A stretch of DNA of 64,000 bases, from assembly GCF_001447355.1 (NCBI RefSeq), contig NZ_JXBW01000008.1:1-64000 (forward strand), written 5' to 3'. The stretch comes from Alicyclobacillus tolerans (lineage in GTDB: Bacteria > Bacillota > Bacilli > Alicyclobacillales > Alicyclobacillaceae). Shown here in pieces: positions 29,275 to 53,973 of this stretch. How positions within the stretch are numbered: the first letter of the stretch is position 1; the number at the start of each line of letters is the position of its first letter. A program made the position numbers and the translations under genes. Below the pieces are notes generated by a model, which had not been told where the DNA came from, did no database searches, and was given only the letters and a program-made list of their open reading frames with translations.

Positions 29275-29830
29275 TCGTTTGCTTCAGGATTTGCGAAGAC
29301 AACTGTCTGACGTTCGTTTTCGCCACGTCGAAGGCGTTGTGCAAACGGCACGGGATTTGGCCAATCGCTTCGGGGTTTGCGCAAGCAAAGCGGAAGTAGC
29401 TGCCTGGTTGCACGATTTTGCGCGCGAATGGTCGAGGGATCGGTTGTTGCGGTATGTGAAAGAACATGCAATTTCGCTCCCGGACGAGTGGCTTACGGTA
29501 CCTTTGTTGTTACACGGACCGGTCGCTGCGCATATTGGAAAACAAATGTATCAAATTGAAGATGAAGAGATACTCGATGCAGTGCGCTATCACACCACGG
29601 GCAGGCCCAACATGACGGATCTGGATCTGGTGCTGTTTGTTGCGGATGCCATCGAACCGAATCGCTCGTATCCAGGCGTCGAGGCCGTGCGGGCGGCACT
29701 GACAGACGGGCTGGCAAACGCAGCGCGGGCCAGTCTCGACAACACGATTACCTACTTGATTGCCACCGGCCGCCCGCTTGGATTACTCGCAGTGGCGGCA
29801 CGCAACTCGCTTCTTGAGCGAGGAGTGTAA
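29255..29830 (+). CDS. yqeK: YqeK, HD-domain diadenosine tetraphosphatase
   Basis: A 191-residue HD hydrolase. The HD signature is seen as RHVEGVVQTARDLA, then AWLHDFAREWS (HD), LLHGPVAAHIGK, AVRYHTTGRPNM and FVADAIEPNR. The YqeK family symmetrically hydrolyses Ap4A to two ADP, using a di-iron centre. ATG 29255 follows GGAGTGGCGA; ATG 29240 is an in-frame alternative. The frame overlaps nadD by 20 bp, and the pairing with nadD is characteristic. Confidence 0.93.
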   Translation: MSEIKLDRLLQDLRRQLSDVRFRHVEGVVQTARDLANRFGVCASKAEVAAWLHDFAREWSRDRLLRYVKEHAISLPDEWLTVPLLLHGPVAAHIGKQMYQIEDEEILDAVRYHTTGRPNMTDLDLVLFVADAIEPNRSYPGVEAVRAALTDGLANAARASLDNTITYLIATGRPLGLLAVAARNSLLERGV

Positions 29831-49285: not shown

Positions 49286-50031
49286 TGTTGCCGCGCGCAT
49301 TTGTCGAGGGAATCGGTGAGCCGGGGCGGACGGTTGCCATCGGCGGCGAAGACGGCCGCCATTTCGCCCGCGTTTTGCGCGTGCGTCCCGGGGAGCAGCT
49401 GGTCATTGCCTTGGACGACGGGCCATGGCTTGGGGAAATCGTCGCCGTGGAGCAGTCGGCTGTCGCCGTTTGCTTGCGCGAACGCTATCCTACTTCCGAG
49501 CCTGCCGCAGGTTTCGTCGTCGTGCAAGGCATGGCCAAGGGAGACAAGATGGAGTCGATCCTCCAGAAGTGCACGGAGATCGGCGCCATCTCTTTTGTTG
49601 TTTACCAGGCAGAGCGTTCAGTTGCCCGCATTGAGGGCAAGGTGGAGGCGAAGTTGGAGCGCTGGCGCAAGATCGTTCGCGAGGCGGCGATGCAAGCACA
49701 GCGCGATCGCGTACCTGACGTGGTGTACGCCAAGACGTTGCCCGATCTCGCTCGCTTGCTCGAAAGCAAGGGAGTGACGCATTCCCTTGTGCTCGACGAG
49801 TCGGAGCGCACCCGAGGTTTTCGCTCTGCGTTGCAGGAGGCGCCGGGTGCTTTTGTGCGGGCGATTCTGATTGGGCCGGAGGGCGGTTGGGCCGACGCCG
49901 AAAGGGACGCGTTGCACAGTCTGCCGGGGGCCTGTGCGGTGACGCTTGGGCCGCGCATTTTGCGCACAGAAACGGCGGGGATGGCCGCACTTGCAGCAGC
50001 CTTGATGCATTTTGGCGACATGGGAGGTTGA
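49285..50031 (+). CDS. rsmE: 16S rRNA m3U1498 methyltransferase
   Basis: A SPOUT methyltransferase of 248 residues. A PUA-like N-terminal domain (HFARVLRVRPGEQLVIALDDG) is followed by MAKGDKMESILQKCTEIG and the knot motifs AILIGPEGGWADAE and LGPRILRTETAGMAAL. The start ATG overlaps the prmA stop, so the two are translationally coupled, as in Bacillus (yqeT-yqeU). Confidence 0.95.
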   Translation: MLPRAFVEGIGEPGRTVAIGGEDGRHFARVLRVRPGEQLVIALDDGPWLGEIVAVEQSAVAVCLRERYPTSEPAAGFVVVQGMAKGDKMESILQKCTEIGAISFVVYQAERSVARIEGKVEAKLERWRKIVREAAMQAQRDRVPDVVYAKTLPDLARLLESKGVTHSLVLDESERTRGFRSALQEAPGAFVRAILIGPEGGWADAERDALHSLPGACAVTLGPRILRTETAGMAALAAALMHFGDMGG

Positions 50032-50035
50032 TAAG

Positions 50036-51463
50036 GTGCCAACGGTCGCGTTTCATACGCTCGGATGCAAAGTGAACTTTTACGATACGGAAGGCATTTG
50101 GCAGGTTTTTAAGCACCGCGGCTACGAGCAGGTGCCTTTTGAGGAAAAGGCGGATGTGTACGTCGTCAACACGTGCACAGTGACGCACACCGGCGACAAA
50201 AAAAGCCGCCAGATGATTCGCCGTGCGGTCCGTACGAATCCCGATGCTGTGGTCGTCGTCACGGGTTGCTACGCGCAGGTGGCACCCGATGAAGTGGCTC
50301 GCATCGCCGGCGTCGACTTGGTCATTGGCAACGACCAGAAGTCCAAGATTGTCGATCACGTCGAGCGCGTGCAAAAAGAACAGCATCCCTACCAAAGCGT
50401 CGGCAATATCATGAAGGCGGACGCATTTGAGGAATTGGACGTCCCGTATTTCGAAGAGCGTTCGCGTGCGAACCTGAAAATCCAGGATGGTTGCAACAAC
50501 TTTTGCACGTTTTGCATCATTCCGCGTGCACGTGGTTTGATTCGCAGCCGCAAGCCGGAAAATGTCCTGGCGCAGGCAACCAAATTGGCTCAAGCTGGCT
50601 ATCGGGAAATCGTCTTGACGGGCATTCATACAGGCGGCTATGGCGCAGACTTTGAAGATTATCGATTGGCGCATTTGCTTGCGGACTTGGAACGAATCGA
50701 GTTGCCGTTTCGCATCCGGATCAGTTCGATTGAGGCAAGCGAGATCGACGACCATTTAATCGAGGTGCTCGGCCGTTCACAAAAAGTCGTCAACCACTTG
50801 CATATTCCTCTGCAGGCCGGCAGCGATGAAGTATTGCGGCGCATGCATCGCCACTATACCGTTGCCGAATATGCGGAAAAGTTGAAGCAGTTGCGCAAGG
50901 CCCTCCCTGATCTTGCGATCACGAGCGACGTGATCGTCGGTTTTCCGGGTGAGACGGACGCCGACTTCGAGAACACTTACGCGTTTGTTGCAAAGCAGCG
51001 CTTCTCGCAGCTTCACGTCTTTCCGTATTCACAGCGGCGTGGTACGGCTGCGGCCAAATTTAAGGATCAAGTTGCAGAAGACGTGAAACACCTTCGCGTG
51101 ACACGCATGATTCAACTTTCGCAGCGCCTGGAAGCGGACTATGCACGTCAATTTGTCGGACGCCATCTCGACGTCATCGCCGAGTCGCCGGTCATCTCGG
51201 CGGATGACGAGACGCGGCGCGCGTTTGCGGCACACCCGGAGCAAAAGCGGATGCTTGTCGGTTATGCCGGAAATTACTTGCGCGTGGCATTTCGTGTCCC
51301 CGAGGGGATGCCCCTCGAAGCGCTCGTCGGCGAACGGATGCGTGTACGCATTGTTGAGACGGGCAATGGGGTGCAATTAGGGCATTTTGTCGAACAACTG
51401 ACGTTTTCCGATCAGGACGAGCATGACGTCGCGGTGAGCACAGGCGGGAGGTTGACATCGTGA
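50036..51463 (+). CDS. mtaB: tRNA t6A37 methylthiotransferase MtaB
   Basis: A radical SAM enzyme that makes ms2t6A37 in tRNA. The 475 residues show the N-terminal cluster cysteines (FHTLGCKVN, VNTCTVTH, TGCYAQ), the radical SAM motif DGCNNFCTFCIIPRARG, the VVNHLHIPLQAGSDEVLRRM region and a TRAM domain with MRVRIVETGNG. GTG 50036 follows GGGAGGTTGATAAG and lies 4 bp after rsmE. The end overlaps the Nudix-DeoC gene by 4 bp. Confidence 0.95.
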   Translation: MPTVAFHTLGCKVNFYDTEGIWQVFKHRGYEQVPFEEKADVYVVNTCTVTHTGDKKSRQMIRRAVRTNPDAVVVVTGCYAQVAPDEVARIAGVDLVIGNDQKSKIVDHVERVQKEQHPYQSVGNIMKADAFEELDVPYFEERSRANLKIQDGCNNFCTFCIIPRARGLIRSRKPENVLAQATKLAQAGYREIVLTGIHTGGYGADFEDYRLAHLLADLERIELPFRIRISSIEASEIDDHLIEVLGRSQKVVNHLHIPLQAGSDEVLRRMHRHYTVAEYAEKLKQLRKALPDLAITSDVIVGFPGETDADFENTYAFVAKQRFSQLHVFPYSQRRGTAAAKFKDQVAEDVKHLRVTRMIQLSQRLEADYARQFVGRHLDVIAESPVISADDETRRAFAAHPEQKRMLVGYAGNYLRVAFRVPEGMPLEALVGERMRVRIVETGNGVQLGHFVEQLTFSDQDEHDVAVSTGGRLTS

Positions 51464-52737
51464 GCGAGCGGGTCGAACGAGCTGCAGGCGGGCTGGTTGT
51501 GCGCCAGGGAAGGCAAGGTCGCGAAGTGTTGTTGATCGACGACGCGTACGGCCAAGTCGCATTTCCGAAAGGCCACTTGGAGCCAGGTGAGACGTGGGAA
51601 GAGGCGGCGGTTCGCGAAATCTTGGAAGAGACTGGCGTGCGGGCGCGCATTGTCGGCGACATCGGGCGGATCGAATATCGGATTGAGCGCAATGGCGATC
51701 CGGTGCGCAAGCAGGTGCGGCTTTACCTCCTTCAAGCGGAGGGCGATGCGTCGCCGGTGCACCAGGTCGAGGAAGTCAACGCGGCTTACTTTTTGCCGTG
51801 GGATGAGGCAAAAGCGCGTCATGAGGAACGCGGATACCCGAATTGGGCTTTCGCCTTTGCCAAAGCGGAGGCGATCTTGGATTGGCTCGACGGCGGTTTT
51901 GAAGAGAAGTTTCGCCAGCTGTCGCTCGCCGCACCTGTGGCAGACGTCGATCAGGCATTTGTCGCCGCGCGCGCTGCGCTAAACAAGCTGGTCGCCGCCT
52001 GCCGCGCGGAAGTGCTACAGACGTTGCCCCAAGTGCCGTGGTTTCCGGCCAAAGACGTCTCCCTTCCTCGCCCAAAGCCCAGTGCCGAAGCGGTGCAAGC
52101 GGCCATCGAAAGCACATTGTTGCGCCCGGAGGCCAGCGAAATCGACATTCAAAATCTTTGCGCGGAAGCGATCCGCAAGAAGTGGCCGACCGTCTGTGTA
52201 TCGCCGCGCCATGTGGCCTTGGCAAGGCGTTTTCTTGGCGCGGAACCGGTGCGCGTGTGCACGGTCATTGGATTTCCCCATGGCGCGTCGACCCCAGGTG
52301 CTTTGCGCTTTGAAGTGGCAGATGCCGTGGCGTCCGGCGCTGTCGAGATCGATATGGTGGGGCCTGTTGGCGCGCTTTGCGAGGGCGATCTCGCGAGTTG
52401 GTATCTAGCGGTCCGCGCTGTGGTCGATACCGCCCATCAGTTCGCAGACCCGCCTGTTGTCAAGGTGATTCTGGAGACGAGCGCACTCGCCATCGATGGC
52501 GTCATCAAGGGCGCCCTGGTCGCCGCGGCGGCGGGAGCGGACTTCGTTAAGACATCGACAGGGTTTCACACAGGGGGCGCGCGCATCGCGGATGTCGCCG
52601 CGATGGCGATGGCGGTTGCCGGGCGGGCTGGTGTGAAGGCTTCCGCAGGCATTCGCACCCCCGAGGCGGCCGTGCAGTTGTTGCGCTATGGCGCGGATCG
52701 GCTTGGGACGTCGGCTGCTGCTAAACTGTTGCCCTAG
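51460..52737 (+). CDS. Nudix hydrolase-deoxyribose-phosphate aldolase fusion
   Basis: A 425-residue single frame with two enzymes. Residues 1-145 are a Nudix hydrolase: AAGGLVVRQG, then the complete Nudix box GHLEPGETWEEAAVREILEE followed by TGV. After a linker of about 60 residues, residues 210-425 form a class I DeoC. It shows VCVSPRHVALA, CTVIGFPHGAS, EIDMVGPVGAL (conserved Asp), the Schiff-base lysine in DFVKTSTGF and the second lysine in GVKASAGIRTPE. DeoC splits deoxyribose-5-phosphate to acetaldehyde and glyceraldehyde-3-phosphate. GTG 51460 follows GGGAGG and overlaps mtaB. No frameshift is needed to read through both domains. Confidence 0.88.
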   Translation: MSERVERAAGGLVVRQGRQGREVLLIDDAYGQVAFPKGHLEPGETWEEAAVREILEETGVRARIVGDIGRIEYRIERNGDPVRKQVRLYLLQAEGDASPVHQVEEVNAAYFLPWDEAKARHEERGYPNWAFAFAKAEAILDWLDGGFEEKFRQLSLAAPVADVDQAFVAARAALNKLVAACRAEVLQTLPQVPWFPAKDVSLPRPKPSAEAVQAAIESTLLRPEASEIDIQNLCAEAIRKKWPTVCVSPRHVALARRFLGAEPVRVCTVIGFPHGASTPGALRFEVADAVASGAVEIDMVGPVGALCEGDLASWYLAVRAVVDTAHQFADPPVVKVILETSALAIDGVIKGALVAAAAGADFVKTSTGFHTGGARIADVAAMAMAVAGRAGVKASAGIRTPEAAVQLLRYGADRLGTSAAAKLLP

Positions 52738-52739
52738 CC

Positions 52740-53666
52740 TCAGTGGGCCGGTAGCAGGCGTTCCACCAGGCTTGCGAATTGGCGAGTAAACGGCCACACG
52801 ATGAGCGTGCACAAAAGGTTGAACGCCGTGTTTGCATTGGCGATTTGCTGTGCTGGATCTTCCGCGGTCATGGCCATCACGTGCGCGAATGGTTGCAGTA
52901 ACGGAACAAAAGCCACGACGCCCAACACGTTGAGCAGCACGTGGGCCAAGGCGACCTGCTGGGCTGGGCGGATGGTGCCGATGGCGGCGATGACGGACGT
53001 CAGGCATGTACCTACATTGGCGCCAAGCGCGATCGCGATGCCGCCGACGACGGAAATCAAACCGTCTGCGGCCAGGGCCATAGCGATGAGCGTGGTTGCC
53101 GTCGACGACTGGACGATGGCGCTAAGGCCACAGCCAATGGCGAGCGCGAGAAGCGGCCGGGCACCCGCATGCAGGAGTGCCACATGAAACCAATTGCTCG
53201 CGGCAAGCGGTTCTAGGGATGTCTTTAAAGCCTGTAGCGAAATAAAGATGCAAGCAAAGCCAACGAGGCCTTCACCCAAGCGTCCCAGCTTCGGTTTGCG
53301 CGTGTATACCAGGATGATGCCGGCGATCAGCGCAGGCAGGACGATGCCCCAAAGGTTGAGATTCAACAGTTGCGGTGTAATCGTCGATCCGACGTTGGCG
53401 CCAAGGACGACGGCGAGGCCGCTTGGAAACGTGATGCTGCCGGCGGCGACGAGGCCGACGGCAATCGCGGTCAAGGCCGCGCTGCTCTGCAGTATCGCCG
53501 TCGCGAAGGCACCTGTGAGGATGCCGCGCGAGGGCGTTGCGACGAGCCGCTGTAGCCATTTTGTCAAGGTGCCTTCCGCCAGGCCTGTCAGACCACTGCG
53601 CATGACGCGTAGTCCGCCGAGAAAGGCGACGATGGAGAGTATCGTCGCAATCGCGTGAGTCCACAT
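52740..53666 (-). CDS. Na/Pi cotransporter family protein
   Basis: A 308-residue membrane protein of the NptA/PhoU-less group. Two inverted repeats carry the QSSAALTAIAVGL and QSSTATTLIAMALAA motifs, each followed by GANVGSTITPQ or GANVGTCLTSV, the SLC34-type signature. It presumably moves phosphate or another anion with sodium. ATG 53666 has AGGAGAG upstream; the open frame further upstream crosses the rpsU promoter and is not coding. It is convergent with the Nudix-DeoC gene with only 2 bp between stops and no visible terminator. Confidence 0.9.
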   Translation of the reverse strand: MWTHAIATILSIVAFLGGLRVMRSGLTGLAEGTLTKWLQRLVATPSRGILTGAFATAILQSSAALTAIAVGLVAAGSITFPSGLAVVLGANVGSTITPQLLNLNLWGIVLPALIAGIILVYTRKPKLGRLGEGLVGFACIFISLQALKTSLEPLAASNWFHVALLHAGARPLLALAIGCGLSAIVQSSTATTLIAMALAADGLISVVGGIAIALGANVGTCLTSVIAAIGTIRPAQQVALAHVLLNVLGVVAFVPLLQPFAHVMAMTAEDPAQQIANANTAFNLLCTLIVWPFTRQFASLVERLLPAH

Positions 53667-53725
53667 GGCAATCTCTCCTGTTCTAGGACAACCGTATGCA
53701 TACACGGATGGGGCCATGCTTTCGT

Positions 53726-53755
53726 TTGACGAGCTTTTTTTCGCTGTACTATAAT
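53726..53755 (+). promoter_or_regulatory. sigma-A promoter of rpsU
   Basis: TTGACG (53726-53731) and a perfect TATAAT (53750-53755) are 18 bp apart, about 40 bp before the rpsU start. Confidence 0.87.
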
Positions 53756-53793
53756 TACGACTGTCTGATGCATCGCTGGAGGGAGGGAATTCG

Positions 53794-53973
53794 ATGTCTG
53801 AAATTCGTCTGCGCAAGAACGAGTCGCTCGACAGCGCCCTGCGCCGCTTCAAGAAGGCGACGGCTCGCGACGGCGTCTTGGCCGAGGCGCGCAAGCGCGC
53901 ACACTACGAGAAGCCGAGCGTCGCACGCAAGAAAAAGGCCGAGGCTGCTCGCAAAAAGCGCCGTAGCTATTGA
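53794..53973 (+). CDS. rpsU: 30S ribosomal protein S21
   Basis: A 59-residue basic protein of the small subunit: [20 protein letters not shown], then [21 protein letters not shown], the full S21 pattern. GGAGGGAGG stands upstream of ATG 53794. It leads the rpsU-yqeY unit, as in Bacillus, where the pair precedes yqfC through recO. Confidence 0.97.

Follow-up and report, generated by a model that had tools for sequence, protein, structure and literature searches.

What does a cell gain by making a Nudix hydrolase and a deoxyribose-phosphate aldolase as one polypeptide? The question is raised by a gene of Alicyclobacillus tolerans that lies in the window analyzed here, a stretch of 64,000 nucleotides at the start of contig NZ_JXBW01000008.1 (the genome measures 2.81 Mb and is 99.79% complete). 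We think it fairly probable that the gene encodes a two-domain housekeeping enzyme, in which an active class I 2-deoxyribose-5-phosphate aldolase (DERA, the product of deoC) is joined to an independent Nudix enzyme of the diadenosine tetraphosphate or hexaphosphate (Ap4A/Ap6A) type. The two would have been fused by loss of a stop codon, and the main gain would lie in making both enzymes together in a constant 1:1 ratio and assembly rather than in substrate channeling.

One open frame through most of an order

The preliminary description of this DNA had reported an in-frame Nudix-DeoC fusion with an intact Nudix box, both DeoC catalytic lysines, and a linker of about 60 residues. The frame and the Pfam and NCBIfam matches bear out the fusion, the two lysines align with their counterparts in Escherichia coli K-12 DeoC, and the linker measures 63 residues. 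The features of the gene are as follows.

51460 to 52737, plus strand: fused Nudix-DeoC gene, one open frame of 425 codons with a GTG start and a TAG stop
51469 to 51891, plus strand: Nudix domain, residues 4 to 144 (Pfam NUDIX match and structural alignment with 3i7u)
51571 to 51639, plus strand: Nudix box GX5EX7REUXEEXGU, residues 38 to 60 (G38 to V60), intact in the translation
51892 to 52080, plus strand: linker, residues 145 to 207, with a long predicted helix at 160 to 188 (AlphaFold2 model and comparison of fused proteins)
52081 to 52734, plus strand: DERA/DeoC domain, residues 208 to 425 (Pfam, NCBIfam, and solved-structure matches)
52351 to 52353, plus strand: D298, the counterpart of D102 in E. 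coli DERA (alignment with E. coli K-12 DeoC)
52549 to 52551, plus strand: K364, the counterpart of K167 in E. coli DERA (same alignment)
52636 to 52638, plus strand: K393, the counterpart of K201 in E. coli DERA (same alignment)

Pfam places NUDIX at residues 8 to 122 (6.6e-17; 62.2 bits against a gathering score of 21.1) and DeoC at residues 221 to 400 (4.9e-12). The one frame translated on the opposite strand of the gene contains three stops. In its two nearest relatives an ATG stands where the fused gene of the window starts with GTG, and the fused protein is 96% identical to that of A. hesperidum DSM 12489 and 84% identical to that of A. sacchari DSM 17974.

The fusion is real and not a sequencing artifact, because 56 of the 59 genomes of the order encode the two halves in a single open frame, a count that also excludes a chance frame. 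The sample comprised 41 genomes of the window's own family (f1) and 18 of a second family (f2); the frames of 39 f1 and 15 f2 fusions were read together, and those of two further f1 genomes (G798 and G799) separately. Every f1 genome (41/41) and 15 of the 18 f2 genomes have the fusion, so that the domain order recurs in related genomes, as the preliminary description had proposed to check, and the hidden sequencing error that it had feared did not materialize. One f1 member, G024, gave a Nudix match alone, its DeoC half having diverged beyond the reach of blast; reading the DNA confirmed a single frame. Among the three f2 exceptions, G050 has a Nudix gene at the locus without deoC, and the search of the order genomes returned no match plausible as the fused gene in G037 and G043. 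The Nudix box pattern is present in all 61 fused proteins tested.

The gene order around the fusion is likewise conserved. The two flanking genes of the window are the following.

50012 to 51463, plus strand: upstream neighbor, mtaB-like, taken from its first possible start, with a 4-nucleotide overlap with the fused gene
52740 to 53894, minus strand: downstream convergent neighbor, Na/Pi-cotransporter-like, taken from its first possible start, a conserved flank

The overlap is the GTGA at 51460 to 51463, where the start of the fused gene shares four nucleotides with the mtaB stop. These two neighbors, which we take to be mtaB and a Na/Pi cotransporter gene, and, further upstream, genes that are presumably prmA and rsmE recur in the loci read wherever the stretch is long enough: prmA, rsmE, and mtaB upstream, and the transporter-like gene on the opposite strand downstream. 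The long linker is confined to family f1 among the fused proteins read; those of families f2, f18, f23, f28, and f31 are short and variable. The stand-alone deoC genes of G087 and G066 (L135 and L137) encode an N-terminal extension that resembles part of the f1 linker, so that the long linker may descend from an old extension of DeoC.

The aldolase half and the deoxynucleoside route

The C-terminal half has the marks of a class I DERA, which would split 2-deoxyribose-5-phosphate into acetaldehyde and glyceraldehyde-3-phosphate. It scores 191.5 bits against the NCBIfam deoC equivalog TIGR00126 (cut-off, 117.3) and keeps the equivalent of K167, presumably the Schiff-base lysine of the E. coli enzyme (the reference sequence was taken from NC_000913.3). 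An AlphaFold2 model of the whole protein, a step that the preliminary description had suggested, was built from an alignment of 6 sequences and has a mean predicted local distance difference test score (pLDDT) of 92.0 and a predicted template modeling score (pTM) of 0.92; a pTM this high suggests that the two halves are placed in a defined way relative to each other. Solved DERAs superpose on the DeoC half of the model with Z scores of 30.9 to 31.3 and a root mean square deviation (rmsd) of 1.2 to 1.4 over 212 to 217 residues. The half thus shares its fold, domain length, equivalog score, and D102/K167/K201 equivalents with the DERAs of Geobacillus (8qps), Thermotoga maritima (3r12), and E. 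coli K-12, and it differs from them in standing behind a Nudix domain and a helical linker and in carrying the substitutions D16E, G204A, and S239A (E. coli numbering). No chain spanning both domains was found among the PDB matches listed.

From the motif EIDMVGPVGAL, with proline in place of asparagine, the preliminary description had argued that the substrate may differ. That argument is ruled out, since E. coli K-12 DERA itself has a proline (Pro106) there; the proline is present in all 39 aligned f1 fused proteins.

Deoxynucleosides are degraded by way of deoxyribose-1-phosphate, released by a nucleoside phosphorylase, and deoxyribose-5-phosphate, formed by DeoB, whose cleavage products enter central metabolism. 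The window genome has a DeoB on contig C52 and a pyrimidine-nucleoside phosphorylase on contig C11, and the fused protein (P0001) is its only DeoC match at an E-value threshold of 0.001. The DERA half is likely to be active because this route, with deoB and the phosphorylase present, would need the sole DeoC of the genome; it therefore probably closes deoxynucleoside breakdown in this organism. To that extent the salvage function put forward in the preliminary description survives.

Side observations were made on both contigs. On contig C52 (L144), a reading of the translations without a family search likens the frames around deoB to a recombinase of the XerD type and a carboxypeptidase of the penicillin-binding-protein type; between deoB and the carboxypeptidase-type frame, no frame of the size of a purine-nucleoside phosphorylase was seen. 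On contig C11, the phosphorylase is fused to a cytidine deaminase in one frame of 588 amino acids (L143:1601-3364, minus strand). Phosphorylase frames are usually 586 to 708 amino acids long in f1 versus about 431 to 483 in f2, and family f1 may thus be marked by a further fusion in deoxynucleoside breakdown, the copy of the window genome being the one read. Phosphorylase and cytidine deaminase activities can be consecutive steps, whereas no common pathway of its halves is established for the Nudix-DeoC protein.

The Nudix half and its neighborhood in other Bacilli

By sequence, the solved chains closest to the N-terminal half are the Aquifex Ap4A hydrolase aq_158 (3i7u; 1.8e-17) and Thermus Ndx1 (1vc8; 1.3e-15), which we take to be an Ap6A hydrolase; the next is a mycobacterial 8-oxo-(d)GTP phosphatase (1.5e-6). 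3i7u is also close by fold, superposing on model residues 3 to 144 with a Z score of 19.7 and an rmsd of 1.1 over 133 of 133 residues, and the FPKG-EPGE stretch around the Nudix box is common to all three proteins; the two solved relatives are single-domain chains of 134 and 126 residues, unlike the fused domain of the window. The Nudix half is thus nearest to the Ap4A/Ap6A hydrolases, a statement of kinship and not of specificity. It would be a pyrophosphohydrolase with a substrate of its own, for which dinucleoside polyphosphates or some nucleotide like them are the likeliest candidates.

An identity as MutT, the diphosphatase of 8-oxo-deoxyguanosine triphosphate (8-oxo-dGTP), was rejected on equivalog scores: 27.3 bits against TIGR00586 (cut-off, 97.9) and 43.6 bits against the MutT1 family NF052459 (cut-off, 475), the latter over profile positions 3 to 111 of 292 only. 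Mycobacterial MutT1 (9cxx, NF052459) likewise carries its Nudix domain at the N terminus of a longer chain, but its second domain is a phosphatase and not a DeoC. With this kinship, the lack of a MutT equivalog match over its cut-off, and the persistence of the Nudix half in genomes that have lost the DERA half or its active site (see below), the other part of the function proposed in the preliminary description, joint clean-up of damaged deoxynucleotides, finds no support. An antiphage role was set aside, the PADLOC match that could point to one (PDC-S07, 25.7 bits, over the Nudix box) being weak and partial. In two other Bacillota genomes, a Nudix domain is fused behind a glycerate kinase (L051:1411-3144, minus strand; L059:262-1881, plus strand).

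How did the two domains come together? Outside the order we used two samples of the class, one with one genome from each of 57 other families encountered in a search of 398 genomes of the class, whose list of best matches was itself not used for class-wide counts, and one with 39 genomes from chosen families (f8, f9, f18, and f23). Linkage was called by reading match coordinates at an E value of 1e-8, and fusion was counted only from DNA that was read, as matches in the same frame can span stops (G055, G291). Nudix lies directly upstream of deoC on the same strand in 18 of the 57 family representatives; 6 have both genes apart, 30 have DeoC only, 2 have Nudix only, and 1 has neither. The corresponding figures for the chosen families are 28 linked, 8 apart, 2 with DeoC only, and 1 with neither. 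Where both matches exist, then, they are linked in 18/24 and 28/36 genomes and unlinked in the remainder. The preliminary description had named separate, unlinked genes in close relatives as evidence against its reading: within the order no such case was found, and part of the more distant Bacilli sampled do show it.

Elsewhere in the Bacilli, deoC and the Nudix gene are often adjacent in the same place after mtaB, and the pair is, judging from these comparisons, an old neighborhood of the class. True fusions outside the order were found at chosen loci in seven genomes (G156, G176, and G196 of f18, G109 and G315 of f23, G086 of f28, and G090 of f31). Of the 18 pairs read as separate genes, eight share a reading frame and are parted by just one stop (6 TAA, 1 TAG, and 1 TGA). 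Genes adjacent after mtaB would thus have become one through loss of that stop codon. Programmed read-through of the stop between separate genes is not favored, given that the stop varies. On a DeoC tree made by a quick method, in which G024 and G044 are long branches, the f1 fusions and the f2 fusions each fall on one side of a branch (Shimodaira-Hasegawa approximate likelihood ratio test supports of 100 and 98), and the fused or separate label needs at least six changes. Fusion probably arose more than once, the tree leaving the number and direction of the changes unsettled. Elsewhere in the phylum (398 genomes), no DeoC match (tblastn, 1e-4) was found within 1.5 kb flanks of the 29 Nudix loci that ranked next to that of the window, a set with four loci from class Bacilli and one cut by a contig end; other phyla were covered by a pattern scan that reaches close relatives only. 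Carriage by phages was rejected, as 20 of 50,697 phage records match and none does so over 80% of the query.

Recurrent linkage and fusion could be taken as a sign of a shared pathway, and this bears on an explanation by functional coupling, in which the Nudix half would work in the same route as DERA, either by priming the DeoB step or by breaking down damaged deoxynucleoside triphosphates toward deoxyribose-5-phosphate. Ap6A/diphosphoinositol-type Nudix enzymes can convert phosphoribosyl pyrophosphate (PRPP) to ribose-1,5-bisphosphate, and sugar bisphosphates prime the phosphopentomutase DeoB, so that the subfamily of the Nudix half speaks for coupling together with the 18/57 linked representatives and the label changes, at least six in number. 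However, 6 of the 24 representatives with both genes have them apart, the window genome carries deoB and the fusion on separate contigs, the Nudix gene stands without deoC at its locus in two genomes (G050 and G059), and the Nudix half is intact in G024, in which deoB, phosphorylase, and a working DeoC went undetected. We regard coupling as improbable.

The same comparisons bear on a purely neutral origin, in which the stop between neighbors was lost and the fusion fixed by drift at zero gain. The eight pairs that are one stop codon short of fusion would suit such an origin, as would the short, variable linkers of the f2, f18, f23, f28, and f31 fusions, but the fusion persists in 56 of 59 order genomes even though a single stop could undo it, and we give a neutral by-product very little credence.

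Fusions with a dead aldolase half

A natural experiment is provided by four of the 56 order fusions, in which both catalytic lysines of the DeoC half are lost (G015 and G024 of f1, G044 and G048 of f2). The D102 equivalent is also lost in G024 and G044; the DeoC motifs of G798 and G799 are intact. All four keep a complete Nudix box and have Pfam Nudix scores of 59 to 68 bits; as the Nudix half outlasts the aldolase, direct channeling is not favored. The pairing of a dead DeoC half with an intact Nudix half (4/56) is a new observation.

Three of the four genomes have a separate deoC (in G015 cut by a contig end), which in G044 and G048 sits between deoB and a phosphorylase gene; the separate deoC genes of G015, G044, G048, G030, and G038 form one clade of the DeoC tree (support of 100). 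The fourth, G024 (94% complete), gave no other DeoC match and no deoB or phosphorylase match over the cut-off. For these counts, deoB and phosphorylase were searched for in 55 genomes, a set that leaves out G034, G035, G036, G230, G319, G798, and G799, and a second deoC was sought in G798 and G799 only with a diverged query. A dead half occurs in 3 of 8 genomes with another deoC versus 1 of 48 without (Fisher p = 0.0075, ignoring kinship, with G044 and G048 being one lineage). The loss pattern fits a DERA half that would be kept for the deo route and freed where the route is served otherwise or lost.

Several observations weigh against the housekeeping reading. No deoB match was found in G028 (97% complete) or G032 (99%), and neither a deoB nor a phosphorylase match in G022 (85%), yet their DERA halves or residues are intact; an intact fused half also stands beside another deoC in five genomes (G006, G012, G030, G036, and G038). 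The link of the DERA half to the deo route is therefore not strict. The three substitutions of the window DERA half affect positions that we take to be near the substrate and phosphate sites of the enzyme; positions 204 and 239 are also changed in an engineered E. coli variant, C47V/G204A/S239D (title of 6z9h). Finally, a YqeK-family match over the family cut-off lies in the same window (29291 to 29776). YqeK is described (PMC10148737) as a symmetrical Ap4A hydrolase of Gram-positives, and an Ap4A role of the Nudix half would be partly redundant with it.

Has the dead half then some other use? We consider it rather unlikely, though worth stating, that the DeoC half has a second, noncatalytic role, as a scaffold, an oligomer former, or a pentose-phosphate sensor for the Nudix half, and that it survives as a pseudo-aldolase once the cell has acquired a different deoC or abandoned the route. 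The broader explanation, in which the DeoC half would stabilize, oligomerize, or regulate the Nudix half besides or instead of catalysis and be kept after active-site death, we judge unlikely too. Both turn largely on G044 and G048, which probably lost the active site once, before they diverged, because they share K201 to Q, a changed IDHT motif, and a long common stem (support of 100).

Over 215 codons, the DeoC halves of G044 and G048 show differences at 48% of first, 36% of second, and 70% of third codon positions, with 6 gap columns and a bootstrap interval of 0.25 to 0.42 for position 3 minus position 2; a stop-free run of 221 codons in random order would arise at these base frequencies with a chance of about 1 to 3 in a million. 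A gap of this kind between positions 2 and 3 is not expected of sequence under no constraint and argues for constraint on the dead half, and the pTM of the window model is consistent with a structural partnership. The constraint is weaker, however, than in their own Nudix halves (30%, 20%, and 69%) and than in f2 pairs whose DeoC halves are live (23 to 28% at position 2 of these halves), and the two genomes, as one lineage, supply one informative case that depends on the single loss: separate late losses would give the same pattern without a second role. Compared with a live relative, the DeoC half of G024 differs nearly evenly over codon positions (47%, 46%, and 57%), a pattern suggestive of decay; G015 has a live relative nearby; and Nudix genes without a DeoC half exist in other Bacilli. 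A noncatalytic role of the dead half is thus possible in one lineage, and the housekeeping enzyme with two independent activities remains our preferred reading of the gene. Were the noncatalytic role true, the fused gene would offer a natural series from a bifunctional enzyme to an enzyme with a pseudoenzyme regulator.

Nudix and DERA enzymes are each known, but joined in one protein they extend through most of a bacterial order. Among the titles and abstract openings listed by searches of an open-licence library, none names this union. In the main text of PMC4921024, deoxyribose, aldolase, and deoC do not occur, and in PMC5389931 aldolase does not occur and PRPP was seen only as an abbreviation entry. 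There is a practical side as well: two of the dead halves still pass the DERA equivalog cut-off (L088:4249-5379, plus strand, 150.2 bits; L046:1441-2802, plus strand, 151.2 bits), and annotation pipelines could name such halves active aldolases. For the biology of the Bacilli, the locus provides a recurrent genomic partner for an unassigned group of their Nudix enzymes and a natural series of states in which the two genes are separate, one stop apart, fused, and fused with a dead half.

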